Below are positions 32,312-52,540 of a stretch of 64,000 bases of DNA, piece after piece. Each line of letters starts with the position of its first letter. Position 1 is the first letter of the stretch. Made by a program: the position numbers and the translations under genes. The DNA comes from Azospirillum formosense (GTDB lineage: Bacteria; Pseudomonadota; Alphaproteobacteria; Azospirillales; Azospirillaceae): the NCBI RefSeq assembly GCF_040500525.1, contig NZ_CP159403.1, positions 1,286,001 through 1,350,000 on the forward strand, written 5' to 3'. Under the pieces are notes generated by a model. That model saw only the letters and a list, made by a program, of their open reading frames with translations, searched no databases and was not told the DNA's origin.

Positions 32312-32881
32312 ATGGTCAAGCTGACCCGCATCTACACCCGCGGCGGGGACCGCGGCCAGACCTCGCTGGGCGACGGGCGCCGCGTGCCCAAGCACGACCC
32401 GCGCGTCGCCGCCTACGGCACGGTGGACGAGGCGAACGCCGTCATCGGGCTGGTCCGGCTGCACACCGCGGACCAGCCGGAGACCGACGCCATGCTGTCG
32501 CGCATCCAGAACGACCTGTTCGACCTGGGCGCCGACCTCTGCACGCCGGAGGCGGAGGACCCGGCCTACCCGCCGCTGCGGATCCTGGAGTCGCAGGTGG
32601 ACCGGCTGGAGGCGGAGATCGACGCGATGAACGCCGACCTCGCTCCGCTCACCTCCTTCATCCTGCCCGGCGGCTCGCCCGCGGCGGCGCATCTGCATCT
32701 GGCGCGCACCGTGGTGCGCCGCGCCGAGCGGCTGATGACCGAGCTGGCGGAGGTGGAGCCGGTCAACCCGGCGGCGGTGAGATACGCCAACCGCCTGTCC
32801 GACCATCTGTTCGTGCTGGGCCGGAAACTGAACGCCAACGGAACCGCCGATGTGCTGTGGGTTCCGGGTGCAAACCGTTGA
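32312..32881 (+). CDS. Cob(I)yrinic acid a,c-diamide / cob(I)alamin adenosyltransferase, PduO type
   Basis: 189 residues. The N-terminal ATP-binding motif TRGGDRGQTSLGDGRRVPKH and the helical core (VAAYGTVDEANAVIGLVR, FILPGGSPAAAHLHLARTVVRRAERL, YANRLSDHLFVLGRK) are diagnostic of PduO-type adenosyltransferases. It makes adenosylcobalamin from ATP and cob(I)alamin. AGGA lies just upstream of the ATG. The enzyme would supply the cofactor of the B12-binding protein encoded at 49123-50235, though AdoCbl is also used by other enzymes. Confidence 0.9.
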   Translation: MVKLTRIYTRGGDRGQTSLGDGRRVPKHDPRVAAYGTVDEANAVIGLVRLHTADQPETDAMLSRIQNDLFDLGADLCTPEAEDPAYPPLRILESQVDRLEAEIDAMNADLAPLTSFILPGGSPAAAHLHLARTVVRRAERLMTELAEVEPVNPAAVRYANRLSDHLFVLGRKLNANGTADVLWVPGANR

Positions 32882-47901: not shown

Positions 47902-49098
47902 TCAAGGGGATGATGCCACCAATGGCAGATCCACCGTGAAGGTCGAACCGCGCCCCGGCGCCGAATCGGCGGTGATGCGCCCGCCATGCCCCTCGACGAT
48001 GGAGCGGCAGATGTACAGGCCGAGGCCAACCGTCCCCTCCCCCTCGGTGCCCAGCCGGCCGGTGCGGGCGAAGGGCTGGAAGAGCTGCGCCAGCTCGGCC
48101 GGAGGAATGCCACGCCCGCCGTCGGACACACGCAGACGCACCCGGCCACCCTCCTCGCCCGCGGCCTCGCTGAGGGCGACACGGACCCGTCCGCCCCGGT
48201 CGGAGTATTTGACGGCGTTCGACAGAAGGTTGTTGAGAAGCTGATCCAGCTTGGCCGGGTCGATCTCGGCCATGGGCAACGGGCGTTCGGGCACGGACAG
48301 CTCGATAATGATGCACTTGCCCTCGGCCAACACGCGATTCATCGAGACGTTCCGCCGGACCAGCGCCGCCAGATCGGTCGGCCGCCGCGTCAGCCGCAGC
48401 CGCCCCGCCTGGAGCGCCGCCAGGGACAGCGCGTCCTCCACCATGTGGCGCATCGACAGGCTGGATTCCCGGATGCGCTCCAGGCAGGCGCGCTCCGCCG
48501 CCTCCAGCCGCCCGTCCAGCCGTTGCTCCAGCAGTTCCGCAAAGCCGACGACGACCTGGAGCGGCGTGCGCAGGTCGTGGGCCAGCATGCCCATCAGGCG
48601 GTTCTTCTGCTCGTTGCTGGCGGCCAACTCGGCGTTTGCCTTGGCAAGCGCCCGCTGGACGTTGGCGAGCTCGTTGTTGAGCAGGGTCATCTCGTCGAAC
48701 AGCGCGTCGGCGGTGGTAATCTCCGGCTTGGGCACCGCCGCCCCAATGGGGGCGAGCCGCCGGGCCAGCCGTGGATTGAGCGCGTCCAGCGCCTCCATCA
48801 GCGCCGGGAGGCCGCCGGGCGCCGGCGTCACGGCCAGCACCATGCCCTCCGCGTCGCAAAGTCCGCTGACATGGAGCACCCCGGCAGGGTCGAGCCGGCT
48901 GGGCACGGGATGATCGAGCGCCCGGCCCGCCTTGCGCAGGCCGCTGAACAGATCCAGCGCCCCCGCCACCGCGTCCGGACCGAACAGGGCCGGAAAGGGC
49001 GTGCCGGGCTTTCCCGTCAATCCCGGCAGTCCGGCGCCCAGCCGGTGCAGGGCGCGCAGCCGCCCGTCGTGGTCGCAGGTCAGGACCAGCGCGTCCAT
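47902..49098 (-). CDS. Soluble sensor histidine kinase linked to a B12-binding protein
   Basis: 398 residues with no TM segment. A PAS-like input (about 1-105; LTCDHDGRLRALHRLGAGLPG, DAEGMVLAVTPAPG) leads through a coiled coil (LLNNELANVQRALAKANAEL) to HisKA with the His in MLAHDLRTPLQVVVGF. The ATPase domain follows: NNLLSNAVKYSD, SDGGRGIPPAEL and GTVGLGLYICRSIVEGHGG. The gene starts 24 bases after the stop of the cobalamin-binding gene, so both are co-transcribed. The short N-terminal domain lacks an obvious ligand site; the B12 protein may be its sensory partner (inference). No receiver domain is attached. Confidence 0.9.
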   Translation of the reverse strand: MDALVLTCDHDGRLRALHRLGAGLPGLTGKPGTPFPALFGPDAVAGALDLFSGLRKAGRALDHPVPSRLDPAGVLHVSGLCDAEGMVLAVTPAPGGLPALMEALDALNPRLARRLAPIGAAVPKPEITTADALFDEMTLLNNELANVQRALAKANAELAASNEQKNRLMGMLAHDLRTPLQVVVGFAELLEQRLDGRLEAAERACLERIRESSLSMRHMVEDALSLAALQAGRLRLTRRPTDLAALVRRNVSMNRVLAEGKCIIIELSVPERPLPMAEIDPAKLDQLLNNLLSNAVKYSDRGGRVRVALSEAAGEEGGRVRLRVSDGGRGIPPAELAQLFQPFARTGRLGTEGEGTVGLGLYICRSIVEGHGGRITADSAPGRGSTFTVDLPLVASSP

Positions 49099-49122
49099 CT
49101 CCCCTCCTTCACGCTGCGCTCA

Positions 49123-50235
49123 TCAGGCCACGCCGGCGGCGCGGTCCGGGGCGGCCGGGCGGATCAGCCGCTCCGCAAGAGCGACGGCCTCCTGCGCGCC
49201 GGGCGCGAAAGCGTCGGCGCCCACCGTCCTCCACAAATCCGGGACGAGGTTGAAGGGGTAGCCGCCGACCAGCACCTGCGGCGGCCGCTCCCACGGTTCG
49301 GCGCGCACCGCGGCGATGAGGGCGGCCACCCGCCCGACATGGGCGGTGATGGTGGCCGACACCGCCAGGACCTGGGCGTTCCGCTCCCGCAGCGCGTGGA
49401 CGATGCTGCTCGCAGGCGTGTTGGCGCCGAGATAGTGGCTGTCCCAGCCGGCCATCTCGAAGAAGTCGGCGACCATGCGGATGCCGATCTCGTGCTGCTC
49501 CCCGCTGACGCAGGTGGCGACCATCGACAGGCCGCGCCGCTCGGCGGCGAAGATCGCCGGGTAGAGCTGGCCCATGATCGCCTGGGTGGCGGCGGTGGCG
49601 AAATGCTCATGCGCCACGGTGATCGCGCGCGTCTGCCACAGCCGTCCGATCTCGCGCAGGGTCGGCTGGAACACATGCAGGTAAAGGTCGGGCACCGCCG
49701 CCCCGGTGGCGGTGGCCTCCGTCACCAGCGCCATCGCCCGGCGCCGGTCGCCGGCCAGCAGCGCGTCCATGTAGGAGCGCGCGAGCGCGCCGAGCGGCGC
49801 GTCCGGCCGGACGTAGGGCGGCGCCTCCCGCGGCAGGCCGGGCAAAGCAGACAGCCCCGCTTCAACGCAGGCGCGCACGCGCGCCGCCGTGGCGGGGTCG
49901 ACCCGGACGGCCACCACGTCGCGCAGGATTTCCAGGCTTTCGCCCAACTCCCCGTCGGGAATGCCGATGCCGGCGAAGAGGATCTTGACCCAGGCCACAT
50001 ACTCGCGGAACAGGGCCGGGCTGTCGCTCGCCACCGCCTCCGCAAGATAGAGCAGGTGGAAACCGACATCCTCGACGCAGCGCTCCCGGCCGGCCTCGCC
50101 GTAGCGGGCGTAGAGCGCCGGCCAGCGCTCGAACTGGGTGGCGACGACGGCGCGCGCCAACTCCTCGCGGCGGTCCACGATGGGATTCGAGGCGATCCGT
50201 ATCGGGCCCTGGGCAGGCCGGACGGTCCCCGGCAT
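49123..50235 (-). CDS. Cobalamin-binding photoreceptor-like protein (CarH/LitR-type sensor domain, no DNA-binding domain)
   Basis: 370 residues. The C-terminal part (about 150-355) combines a B12-binding helical cap and a B12-binding Rossmann domain. The cap carries the W-x9-EH signature of light-sensing adenosylcobalamin proteins: W200, E210, H211 in LWQTRAITVAHEHFATAA. The Rossmann part has E-x-H-x-x-G (E246, H248 in GEQHEIG), with H248 as the expected lower cobalt ligand as in CarH. It lacks the MerR helix-turn-helix of CarH/LitR; instead the N-terminus (about 20-145) is an all-helical domain I cannot name (RREELARAVVATQFERWPAL, ALFREYVAWVKILFAGIGIP). The kinase gene 24 bases downstream suggests a signalling partner. 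The ATG at 50235 has GGAGA about 9 bases upstream. Confidence 0.85.
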   Translation of the reverse strand: MPGTVRPAQGPIRIASNPIVDRREELARAVVATQFERWPALYARYGEAGRERCVEDVGFHLLYLAEAVASDSPALFREYVAWVKILFAGIGIPDGELGESLEILRDVVAVRVDPATAARVRACVEAGLSALPGLPREAPPYVRPDAPLGALARSYMDALLAGDRRRAMALVTEATATGAAVPDLYLHVFQPTLREIGRLWQTRAITVAHEHFATAATQAIMGQLYPAIFAAERRGLSMVATCVSGEQHEIGIRMVADFFEMAGWDSHYLGANTPASSIVHALRERNAQVLAVSATITAHVGRVAALIAAVRAEPWERPPQVLVGGYPFNLVPDLWRTVGADAFAPGAQEAVALAERLIRPAAPDRAAGVA

Positions 50236-50575: not shown

Positions 50576-51952
50576 ATGAAATTAATCTCGTCAAAGTCCA
50601 ACATTGTCAGCAACATTGCCAAGTATCCCAACACGACAAAATACGTTGGATTCTATCCAGGAGTTTTTGCATCCCCTATCGGAAATGATACAATTGACCA
50701 ACCTGATTATACACCAAAAGGCAACCCAAGCCTCCTTCATTTACTCAACATATTCTTTAAACAATGCGTTGGTGGATCCAAGGGGGTGTACGCGAATACA
50801 TTCGACATAGACATAAGGAAAAAAGAGAATTTTACACAACTTTTGTTGAAAAATGCTTTTAACAAAATTCCTGGAATCGAAGATGACCTTAAAAAAATTT
50901 CAAATGCAGATGGCTTTTCCAGAATTTGTGCCGAACAAGGGTTATTCAATCCATTTGCGAAATACAATGTGCTCGATGCTGCCGCAGTCGAGGGCGCGTG
51001 CTTATCCAATAATACATTGTTTTCAATATTCCCATACAATTTTATGACGCAAAACCAACAAACAGCTCAGCAAAAAGCAGTAGAGCTTTTGGTGGATTTG
51101 CAGAAATGCCCGAACATCGAAAAATTAATATTATGCGGCCACAGCAACGGAGGAATCCTTATCTACTATATAGCCATGTACCTTGAGCTATTTATTGAAG
51201 AGGGGTGTCTGGATTTTATGATGACAACTGAGACGGATGCGGAAGGAAGACAGAAATTAAGCCCGAAAGGCACATTGAGGAAACTGACCTTTGTCGATCC
51301 GGCGCTCCGAGAAACACTAAAAAAAATCATCGATGCCGGCGAATTTTACCTTACATCGATCATGTCTCCCTTCAAAGGAAGTGAAAAGGCGAATTTGATC
51401 GACTTTTTGCTCAGCACTCCACTTGGGAAACTGGCGCTGGGAGGGGGAAACATGATCCGTTCACTTTCCGGATATGCGAACGAGGACTCTCTGCAGGTTC
51501 CTCGACATCTTCTGACCGAACAACCGCTGATTGACAAGATTATGGACACAAGCGGGTCACTCATTTTTCCTGATCCGACAATCGAAGGCATGCCTTATAG
51601 CACAAGCAGCATAGTTAACAGCATGTCGGAAAAGACAAAAGCCAAAAAAATCTGCATATATTCAGACAAACACATGACAGTCGATTCATACGCCCTGGTC
51701 TCACAGGAAGGTGGAGACGCACCTCCGTTTTATGTTATGCCAATCGGCGAAGCGAAAGGAGACGGAACCGTCGTGGCGACGTCTCAGATACTTGAAGGTG
51801 TGATGCCATCGAATTGTATTCCAATTGAAGAGAATTTCCGACACAACGAACTCATGCAAAATATGTCCACAATTCTGAAATATACGCCAGGCCTTGAGGA
51901 TGAGTACAAAAATTATTTGGAGATCAAGAAAATTATTTCTGGTTTGGAGTAG
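50576..51952 (+). CDS. AT-rich alpha/beta hydrolase with lipase/LCAT-like triad, probably acquired
   Basis: 458 residues, family not firmly recognised. A hand count of 50581-50640 gives 40% G+C against about 70% around it, and A/T-ending codons and Lys, Asn and Ile are frequent, so transfer from a different genome is likely. A lipase-like triad is visible: nucleophile S190 in the elbow LILCGHSNGGILIYYIA, D396 in GDGTV and H423 in FRHNELM. The GDGTV motif followed by a His is typical of LCAT/PDAT-like acyltransferases and some lipases. There is no signal peptide or TM, so it is cytoplasmic or exported by another route, such as a type VI system (speculative). No immunity-like partner lies beside it. 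Upstream, AGGAG is 8 bases before the ATG. Confidence 0.72.
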   Translation: MKLISSKSNIVSNIAKYPNTTKYVGFYPGVFASPIGNDTIDQPDYTPKGNPSLLHLLNIFFKQCVGGSKGVYANTFDIDIRKKENFTQLLLKNAFNKIPGIEDDLKKISNADGFSRICAEQGLFNPFAKYNVLDAAAVEGACLSNNTLFSIFPYNFMTQNQQTAQQKAVELLVDLQKCPNIEKLILCGHSNGGILIYYIAMYLELFIEEGCLDFMMTTETDAEGRQKLSPKGTLRKLTFVDPALRETLKKIIDAGEFYLTSIMSPFKGSEKANLIDFLLSTPLGKLALGGGNMIRSLSGYANEDSLQVPRHLLTEQPLIDKIMDTSGSLIFPDPTIEGMPYSTSSIVNSMSEKTKAKKICIYSDKHMTVDSYALVSQEGGDAPPFYVMPIGEAKGDGTVVATSQILEGVMPSNCIPIEENFRHNELMQNMSTILKYTPGLEDEYKNYLEIKKIISGLE

Positions 51953-52093: not shown

Positions 52094-52540
52094 TCAGCGC
52101 CCCTTCTGAAGAACGAAGGTCAACCGCTTCTGAAGGTCGGCCTTCGACACCGGCTTCACCAGATAGCCGGAGATGCCATAGGCGATGGCCCGCTTGACGG
52201 TGTCCGCCTCGCGATGGGCGGTGAGGACGATCACCGGAAGGTCGGCCAGCGGGTTGCCGGTGGCCGTGCGCAGCGCGTGCAGCAGGTCCAGCCCGCTCAT
52301 CCGCGGCATCTCCAGGTCGCAGATGGCGAGGTCGACCTTTTCCGGATGGTCGCGCAGGATGGCCAGCGCCGACACGCCGTCCGACGCCTCCCACACTTGG
52401 CGAACCCTCAGATCCTGGAGCAGGCGGCTCATCAACCGGCGGGTGAAGTCATCGTCCTCGATCAGCAGGACGTGCAGGTCGCTGATGCTGCGGCTCAGCA
52501 CCCCATCCTTCGCGGGTTCGTTCAGCATCGGCGCGGCCAC
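52094..52540 (-). CDS. Single-domain response regulator (CheY-like)
   Basis: 148 residues, a lone receiver domain: HVLLIEDDDFTRRLMSRLL with the acidic pair, the phospho-accepting Asp in LAICDLEMPRMSGLDLLHAL, the Thr in VIVLTAHREAD and the Lys in SGYLVKPVSKADLQ. With no output domain it must act by protein contact or phosphotransfer. The likely kinase is the one at 47902, on the same strand, from which it is separated by the B12-protein gene and the AT-rich insertion. The start may be GTG at 52540 or ATG at 52528. Confidence 0.88.
   Translation of the reverse strand: MAAPMLNEPAKDGVLSRSISDLHVLLIEDDDFTRRLMSRLLQDLRVRQVWEASDGVSALAILRDHPEKVDLAICDLEMPRMSGLDLLHALRTATGNPLADLPVIVLTAHREADTVKRAIAYGISGYLVKPVSKADLQKRLTFVLQKGR

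Follow-up and report, generated by a model that had tools for sequence, protein, structure and literature searches.

A photocobilin gene paired with a histidine kinase gene in Azospirillum formosense, and a predicted route of light signalling in trans

The stretch of the Azospirillum formosense genome analysed here, 64,000 nucleotides long and hereafter called the window (contig NZ_CP159403.1, positions 1,286,001 to 1,350,000), comes from a 1.7 Mb contig, the whole genome measuring 6.1 Mb. Its minus strand carries two adjacent genes, for a B12-binding sensor protein of 370 amino acids (aa) and for a histidine kinase of 398 aa, and the pairing of these two genes is the subject of this paper. 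The kinase gene lies 24 nucleotides (nt) downstream of the sensor gene, with a good ribosome site (AAGGAGG) before its start. Both open reading frames and their spacing are as described in an earlier note on this DNA, which had proposed a sensor like CarH, joined to an unnamed helical domain, that might switch the kinase. The part of that proposal that places an adenosylcobalamin (AdoCbl)-type light-sensor domain, without a DNA-binding domain, beside a kinase is upheld. The sensor is not, however, a plain CarH-like module with an unknown helix but a photocobilin, since its N-terminal domain is recognisable by Pfam, alignment and profile as a globin of the phycobilisome type. The features of the pair are as follows.

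49123-50235, minus strand: photocobilin, 370 aa, with an N-terminal phycobiliprotein-like globin (about residues 18-133) and a C-terminal AdoCbl light-sensor module (about 149-358)
49846-50193, minus strand: globin (photoglobin) domain with C53-V-E-D56 and W82, placed by profile matches, alignment and conservation
49183-49779, minus strand: B12-binding module with GxxW/EH/GxxH/GxxxP (B12-binding_2 at residues 153-224, B12-binding at 238-351)
47902-49098, minus strand: cognate histidine kinase, 398 aa (HisKA at residues 164-232 with H174, HATPase_c at 280-393)
48724-49098, minus strand: PAS-like partner domain of the kinase, unnamed, about residues 1-125, defined by its own profile and matching no Pfam family
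48583-48711, minus strand: signature linker helix, kinase residues 130-172, running into the phospho-acceptor helix, placed by conservation and model

The B12 part of the sensor is the more easily recognised. Two Pfam families match inside residues 153-351 (B12-binding, 3.7e-20; B12-binding_2, 6.1e-17), and the light-response signature GxxW, EH, GxxH and GxxxP described in PMC11796333, where Trp and Glu-His are given as key residues of AdoCbl light sensors, is present in full as G197/W200, E210/H211, G245/H248 and G270/P274. The residues singled out in the earlier note, W200-x9-E210-H211 and E246-x-H248-x-x-G (read as E246-Q-H248-E-I-G251), are there, and the protein thus combines the W/EH motif with an E/DxH lower-ligand motif (W200, E210, H211, E246, H248). 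Relatives were taken as the best 80 of 140 (79 loci, from Azospirillum to Lokiarchaeota), among which the closest photocobilins, at 94% identity, are those labelled Azospirillum brasilense. In the 80 aligned sequences from the window and the 79 loci, W200, E210, H211 and G270 are invariant, H248 and P274 are kept in 79 and G245 in 69, although conservation is biased in the scanned peptide stretches because the patterns of the relative search lie in the protein itself. The photocobilin of Azospirillum sp. OGB3 (L007) has Arg at the H248 equivalent, a natural variant or a sequencing error, and keeps the other listed motif residues. An AlphaFold2 model is predicted with confidence (predicted local distance difference test 93.4, predicted template modelling score 0.89), and its B12 part resembles 8jbs, a Chloracidobacterium MerR-family protein, 8j2w, which is the photocobilin SasPcob, and CarH. 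A CarH-like DNA-binding regulator was excluded: as the earlier note had said, the protein has no MerR domain (none was matched in the Pfam scan), and the N-terminal domain is a globin. The alternative of a plain corrinoid methyltransferase protein was likewise excluded, the corrinoid models of NCBIfam falling far under their cut-offs and the W/EH residues being present.

The identity of the globin emerges from comparison with SasPcob. Taken alone, the window's protein matches the Pfam family Phycobilisome (PF00502) at E 0.004, under the curated cut-off. Its best match among solved structures is SasPcob, at 9.6e-25 over the whole sequence and in two stretches of swapped order, and a profile built on 56 globin domains finds SasPcob 8j2w at 2.8e-7, together with many allophycocyanins. 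In the alignment D56 falls on Asp270 and W82 on Trp296 of SasPcob (in the paper's numbering, which differs from the chain index by a constant offset of 6, hand-counted on Trp61, Glu71, His108, Asp270 and Trp296). Asp270 holds biliverdin, and Trp296 lies against its ring D and hydrogen-bonds the corrin; AbDPcob, which has His at the Asp position, binds biliverdin weakly (PMC10979010). D56 is kept in 79 of the 80 sequences and W82 in all 80. By its sequence, then, the window's protein is a photocobilin, a B12 module with a bilin-type globin, its two domains standing in the opposite order to those of the solved photocobilins. C53 falls on the Cys to which the bilin of allophycocyanin is attached, and the resulting Cys-x-x-Asp site (C53-V-E-D56), predicted from sequence, would allow the covalent bilin attachment that SasPcob lacks.

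The kinase consists of HisKA (PF00512) and HATPase_c (PF02518) behind an N-terminal region that the earlier note had passed over as lacking an evident ligand domain. The core is that of an orthodox kinase, with H174, N290, N294, D326, G328, G358 and G360 invariant in 53 rows, and no long hydrophobic stretch is apparent in the whole kinase by eye, the judgement being made without a membrane predictor. A domain does occupy residues 1 to about 125, though Pfam does not name it, and the idea of a sensor kinase with no input domain was excluded on finding it conserved. Its modelled topology, strand-strand-helix-helix-three strands, fits PAS; none of 51 members matches a Pfam PAS family at E 0.01, hhalign gives weak matches to six PAS domains, and a relative of the domain at L104 matches PAS_4 at 3.8e-6. 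Between this domain and the core, the linker helix is as conserved as the catalytic core itself: across 53 kinases N141 and R149 never vary, and nor do H174, N290 and G358. The signature residues are E136, N141, N142, L144, Q148, R149, L151, K153, N155 and L158. There is a polar residue at every seventh position (N141, Q148, N155, N162), a spacing like that expected of a register-fixing coiled coil, and the model has a single continuous helix from residue 130 to 193, passing H174. No meaningful solved structure matched the linker helix; a further set of matches in the Protein Data Bank (PDB), mostly designed PPR repeats, was taken as chance, no stretch passing alone.

Is this pairing peculiar to the window? 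The test set beforehand was conservation of the gene pair, and a homologue of the window's kinase stands directly downstream, on the same strand and starting within 450 nt, at 70 of the 79 loci. The partner domain is found downstream at 74 of the 79 and nowhere else in those loci, as scored with a profile built from 42 sequences among those it then scored (the window and 41 loci, so that 41 of the 74 are profile seeds). Domain and helix occur together at 73 loci, the domain alone at one, the helix alone at two (L032, L052) and neither at three (L024, L071, L078), so that one or both are present at 76; at L024 the contig stops 99 nt past the gene. Besides the window's own sequences, the alignments held 70 of 79 relatives (A1), 52 of 62 extracted kinases (A2), 50 of 74 partner domains (A3), 55 of 79 globins (A4) and 41 of 44 linker segments (A6). 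The output is not always a kinase: at the domain-only locus (L051) the partner is a PAS-GGDEF protein of 1409 aa, and at three Adhaeribacter loci (L043, L047, L059) it is a protein of 164-173 aa with domain and helix and no kinase match. The genes lie close together, 66 of 72 measurable gaps being at most 60 nt and 37 zero or overlapping, in a measure that favours short gaps by choosing the nearest start codon. Photocobilin and kinase distances are correlated (Mantel r 0.80, n=60; 0.61 without Azospirillum, n=46; 0 of 999 permutations in each case). The pairing of photocobilin and kinase is old and strict, and it recurs in many bacteria and some archaea.

Searches of whole genomes extend this picture. 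Of 50 carrier genomes, 47 gave the domain, 43 of them with one match only, and 49 gave the helix; in 47 of those 49 the photocobilin is immediately followed by the best helix match (a script counted 46 of 48, to which the window's own is added). A strong domain match (E<1e-10) occurs in three of 398 genomes of the phylum, each time with the globin adjacent, and nine other genomes match weakly, at E 1e-4 to 1e-3. The globin itself is found in five of these 398, two of them without the domain: G063, with no recognised partner, and G285, where globin and B12 module are two genes near a contig end. Helix matches from the first positions of the model occur in two of 299 genomes, both photocobilin carriers; 30 others match more weakly (E 6e-7 or worse), starting no earlier than model position 8 and for the most part covering only the generic end beside the phospho-acceptor, and G159 matches the helix in part. 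Among 350 genomes sampled from the phylum of G043, three have the domain as a strong match, two of them beside a globin. In the third, G507, the gene for a domain-helix-STAS protein precedes that of a sensor with a B12 module and no globin, a neighbour which suggests that it is the B12 module, not the globin, that the adaptor reads.

Several variant arrangements were seen along the way. In G512 a HisKA_2 kinase gene overlaps the photocobilin gene by 4 nt, and inspection by eye shows the helix in its product without the domain. The helix at L104, L112, L115 and L117 was also recognised by eye and is unscored; at L115 (3794-4123) and L117 (1733-2104) it belongs to proteins of 109-123 aa, encoded after the photocobilin genes, that end in CxxC...CxxC and have no Pfam match. 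In G028, two strong linker-helix matches (G028:C32:53179-53355) fall in a 285 aa frame distant from that genome's photocobilin. The split photocobilin of G285 (L100) has its globin and B12 module in two overlapping genes. Proteins of three tandem globin-like repeats are encoded at L114 (2557-3675, G540) and L116 (2730-3887, G644), that of L114 having no Pfam match; its neighbours are a GAF/B12 protein and an HATPase protein, so that globin array, B12 sensor and kinase are separate genes there.

For the supply of pigment, heme oxygenase was sought in 49 of the genomes behind the 79 loci, L023 and 29 other loci standing outside this search. With the protein of the window's genome (which has one heme oxygenase match) as query, the enzyme was found in all eight Azospirillum-group genomes searched, the window's own included. 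Its gene adjoins the photocobilin gene at six of the 79 loci, all deltaproteobacterial by label, divergently at L060, L069, L070 and L076 and upstream on the same strand at L061 and L078. Pfam was run on four of the six products: those of L060, L061 and L076 pass the PF01126 cut-off, and that of L078, cut by a contig end, falls just under it. For those six loci, at least, the adjacency counts as direct evidence from the genome in favour of a bilin. Eight photocobilins (L060, L061, L069, L070, L071, L072, L076, L078) read W-H after the conserved Trp, where others read W-Q, W-L or W-E, and six of the eight have a heme oxygenase gene adjacent. Where no heme oxygenase over the cut-off was found, the Asp and Trp of the bilin site are retained nonetheless.

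Three further genes of the window complete the setting.

52094-52540, minus strand: single-domain response regulator, 148 aa (PF00072, 2.6e-27), a probable phosphate acceptor
50576-51952, plus strand (opposite): low-GC (42%) gene, outside the system, between response regulator and photocobilin
32315-32878, plus strand: PduO-type cobalamin adenosyltransferase, which makes AdoCbl (PF01923, 8.6e-66), unlinked to the pair

A single-domain response regulator gene lies upstream on the same strand at all 14 Azospirillum-group loci (L004-L017, L010 being labelled Roseomonas), and at 12 of them its end is no more than about 350 nt from the photocobilin match; the ancestral order was therefore probably response regulator, photocobilin, kinase. 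The low-GC gene intervenes in the window, L004 and L007 (in the window 42% GC, against a mean of 70%). Its product is hydrolase-like, with a GHSNGG motif and a weak Mbeg1-like match under the cut-off, and the homologous stretch of L007 is split into two open reading frames. The PduO-type AdoCbl synthase to which the earlier note had drawn attention is real, and it would supply the AdoCbl chromophore.

How might the two proteins work together? We think it likely, from the sequences and the gene pairing, that the photocobilin is the target of light and in turn controls the kinase in trans, via the PAS-like domain or the helix. The two genes would then make up a split photoreceptor kinase. The C-terminal module of the photocobilin would bind AdoCbl, its globin most likely biliverdin, and the dark AdoCbl form would, by homology with SasPcob, be a dimer. 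Both AdoCbl and biliverdin are ligands of SasPcob and of AbDPcob, biliverdin a weak one in AbDPcob; the Co-C bond is cleaved under green light, and red light works through biliverdin (PMC10979010). As shown for SasPcob, green light, and with a bilin also red, would break the Co-C bond here too and alter the E210/H211 helix and the dimer. The kinase may sense this change in trans through its PAS-like N-terminal domain, through the signature helix leading into the H174 helix, or through both, and its activity would be altered as a result. The phosphoryl group would then pass to the single-domain response regulator at 52094-52540, as the gene order in relatives suggests. Light-dependent action in trans has a precedent, since photocobilins act in this way on a separate diguanylate cyclase domain (PMC10979010).

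Several observations weigh against this reading or restrict it. Adjacency and co-inheritance demonstrate a functional link, not a role of light, and the distance correlation may in part reflect shared species history. Photocobilins without a recognised partner occur at L071 and L078 and in G063, the best helix match lies away from the photocobilin neighbour in G028 and G026, and additional copies of the partner domain exist in G008, G023, G026 and G033. A globin match was obtained in 37 of the 350 genomes, mostly a weaker one, with the strong partner domain adjacent in only two of the 37, so that the wider, more distant globin family has other neighbours (seven of the globin stretches from this sample were inspected by eye). 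The C53 position is Cys in 30 of the 80 sequences and Ser in 41. In SasPcob without biliverdin the light effect on the separate cyclase is opposite (PMC10979010), and the direction of control is therefore not predictable. Finally, 37 of the 42 carrier genomes outside Azospirillum have no heme oxygenase over the Pfam cut-off (five have one), though two of the 37, G015 and G030, match the Azospirillum enzyme marginally (E about 0.001). With no clear heme oxygenase there, and with many of these carriers anaerobes by label, biliverdin is perhaps not the ligand in the 37.

The same shortage of heme oxygenase could be taken to mean that the protein senses no light at all and instead reports the amount of AdoCbl or the type of cobalamin, with the kinase answering cobalamin status and the globin serving a structural or redox role. 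Many carriers are, by label, sediment bacteria and methanogens for which both light and heme oxygenase are doubtful, and AdoCbl binding itself lowers the activity of AbDPcob relative to the apo form (PMC10979010). This explanation is nevertheless unlikely, given the invariant W and EH and the full light-response signature in the window's protein, together with the bilin-site Asp in 79 of 80 sequences and the heme oxygenase genes beside six photocobilin genes. Those six genes would also suit a sensor led by its bilin, in which the globin holds the main pigment, red light dominates and B12 is mainly a structural or tuning cofactor; the alignment of C53-x-x-D56 with the allophycocyanin attachment site, which would allow a covalent link absent in SasPcob, fits as well. 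Here the chemistry of SasPcob stands in the way, because its biliverdin alone shows no evident photochange, and AdoCbl is required for the response to red light (PMC10979010). With Cys at a minority of C53 positions, as counted above, and a globin-less B12 protein beside the partner domain in G507, we regard a bilin-led sensor as decidedly improbable. The pair might, lastly, be mere operon neighbours without direct contact, the kinase sensing something else, and its partner domain could indeed bind a ligand of its own. Such an arrangement would hardly account for near one-to-one occurrence genome-wide, across distant phyla and in closely spaced or overlapping genes, and we give it very little credence.

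A broader proposal can be put forward, though tentatively. The PAS-like domain and the helix, E-x4-NNEL-x3-QR-x-L-x-K-x-N, may together be a dedicated docking adaptor for free-standing B12/bilin light sensors. On this proposal, and with the same reserve, the outputs driven in trans could include histidine kinases, the PAS-GGDEF protein, the STAS protein and small proteins. It might even amount to modular light signalling over bacteria and archaea, reaching anaerobes that lack heme oxygenase and use another tetrapyrrole or none, and we offer the whole proposal as somewhat less than an even bet.

Standalone photocobilins are reported to act through partners whose identity is not yet clear (PMC10979010). 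A partner can now be named, and the predicted contact region is narrowed to one domain and a helix of about 30 residues. If the interpretation is right, the pair would be a compact two-protein kinase switch responsive to green and red light and would give a non-phototrophic plant-root bacterium a light input; it would also raise the question of which pigment the globin holds in anaerobes. The recurrence of the pair suggests that the predicted light-signalling route is widespread.

Photoglobins were the subject of a 2022 study by Schneider et al., which reportedly predicted both the pairing of globin with B12 and an association with signalling domains. Both predictions are also cited in PMC10979010, whose main text lacks the terms 'histidine kinase' and 'two-component'. 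A limited literature search, which did not cover Schneider 2022, found no conserved trans-kinase, adaptor domain or helix, near one-to-one occurrence or reuse on other outputs. Photocobilins are already published, and it is the dedicated partner signature that looks new. CarH/LitR proteins (e.g. 5C8D) share the AdoCbl module with its W/EH/H residues, but the window's protein lacks their MerR domain and, like SasPcob, differs at the position of H132, the light-state ligand of TtCarH, having Q201 there. BBAG-2, one of the bilin biosynthesis-associated globins, also goes with a B12-binding protein, in a bilin gene cluster, but there globin and B12 protein are not fused, and they are linked to PcyA-like reductases (Rockwell et al. 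2023, PMC10151467). The closest known systems are SasPcob and AbDPcob (Zhang et al. 2024, PMC10979010; PDB 8J2W, 8J2X, 8J2Y), which likewise combine a B12 module and a bilin-type globin with W/EH/ExH residues, SasPcob also sharing the Asp and Trp of the bilin site. The same paper proposes that the standalone form acts on partners through protein contact, and it sorts predicted photocobilins into groups, some with an N-terminal and others with a C-terminal AdoCbl domain. From these two proteins the photocobilin of the window differs in having its globin first and its B12 module second, in its bilin-type Cys, and in its fixed kinase partner gene.

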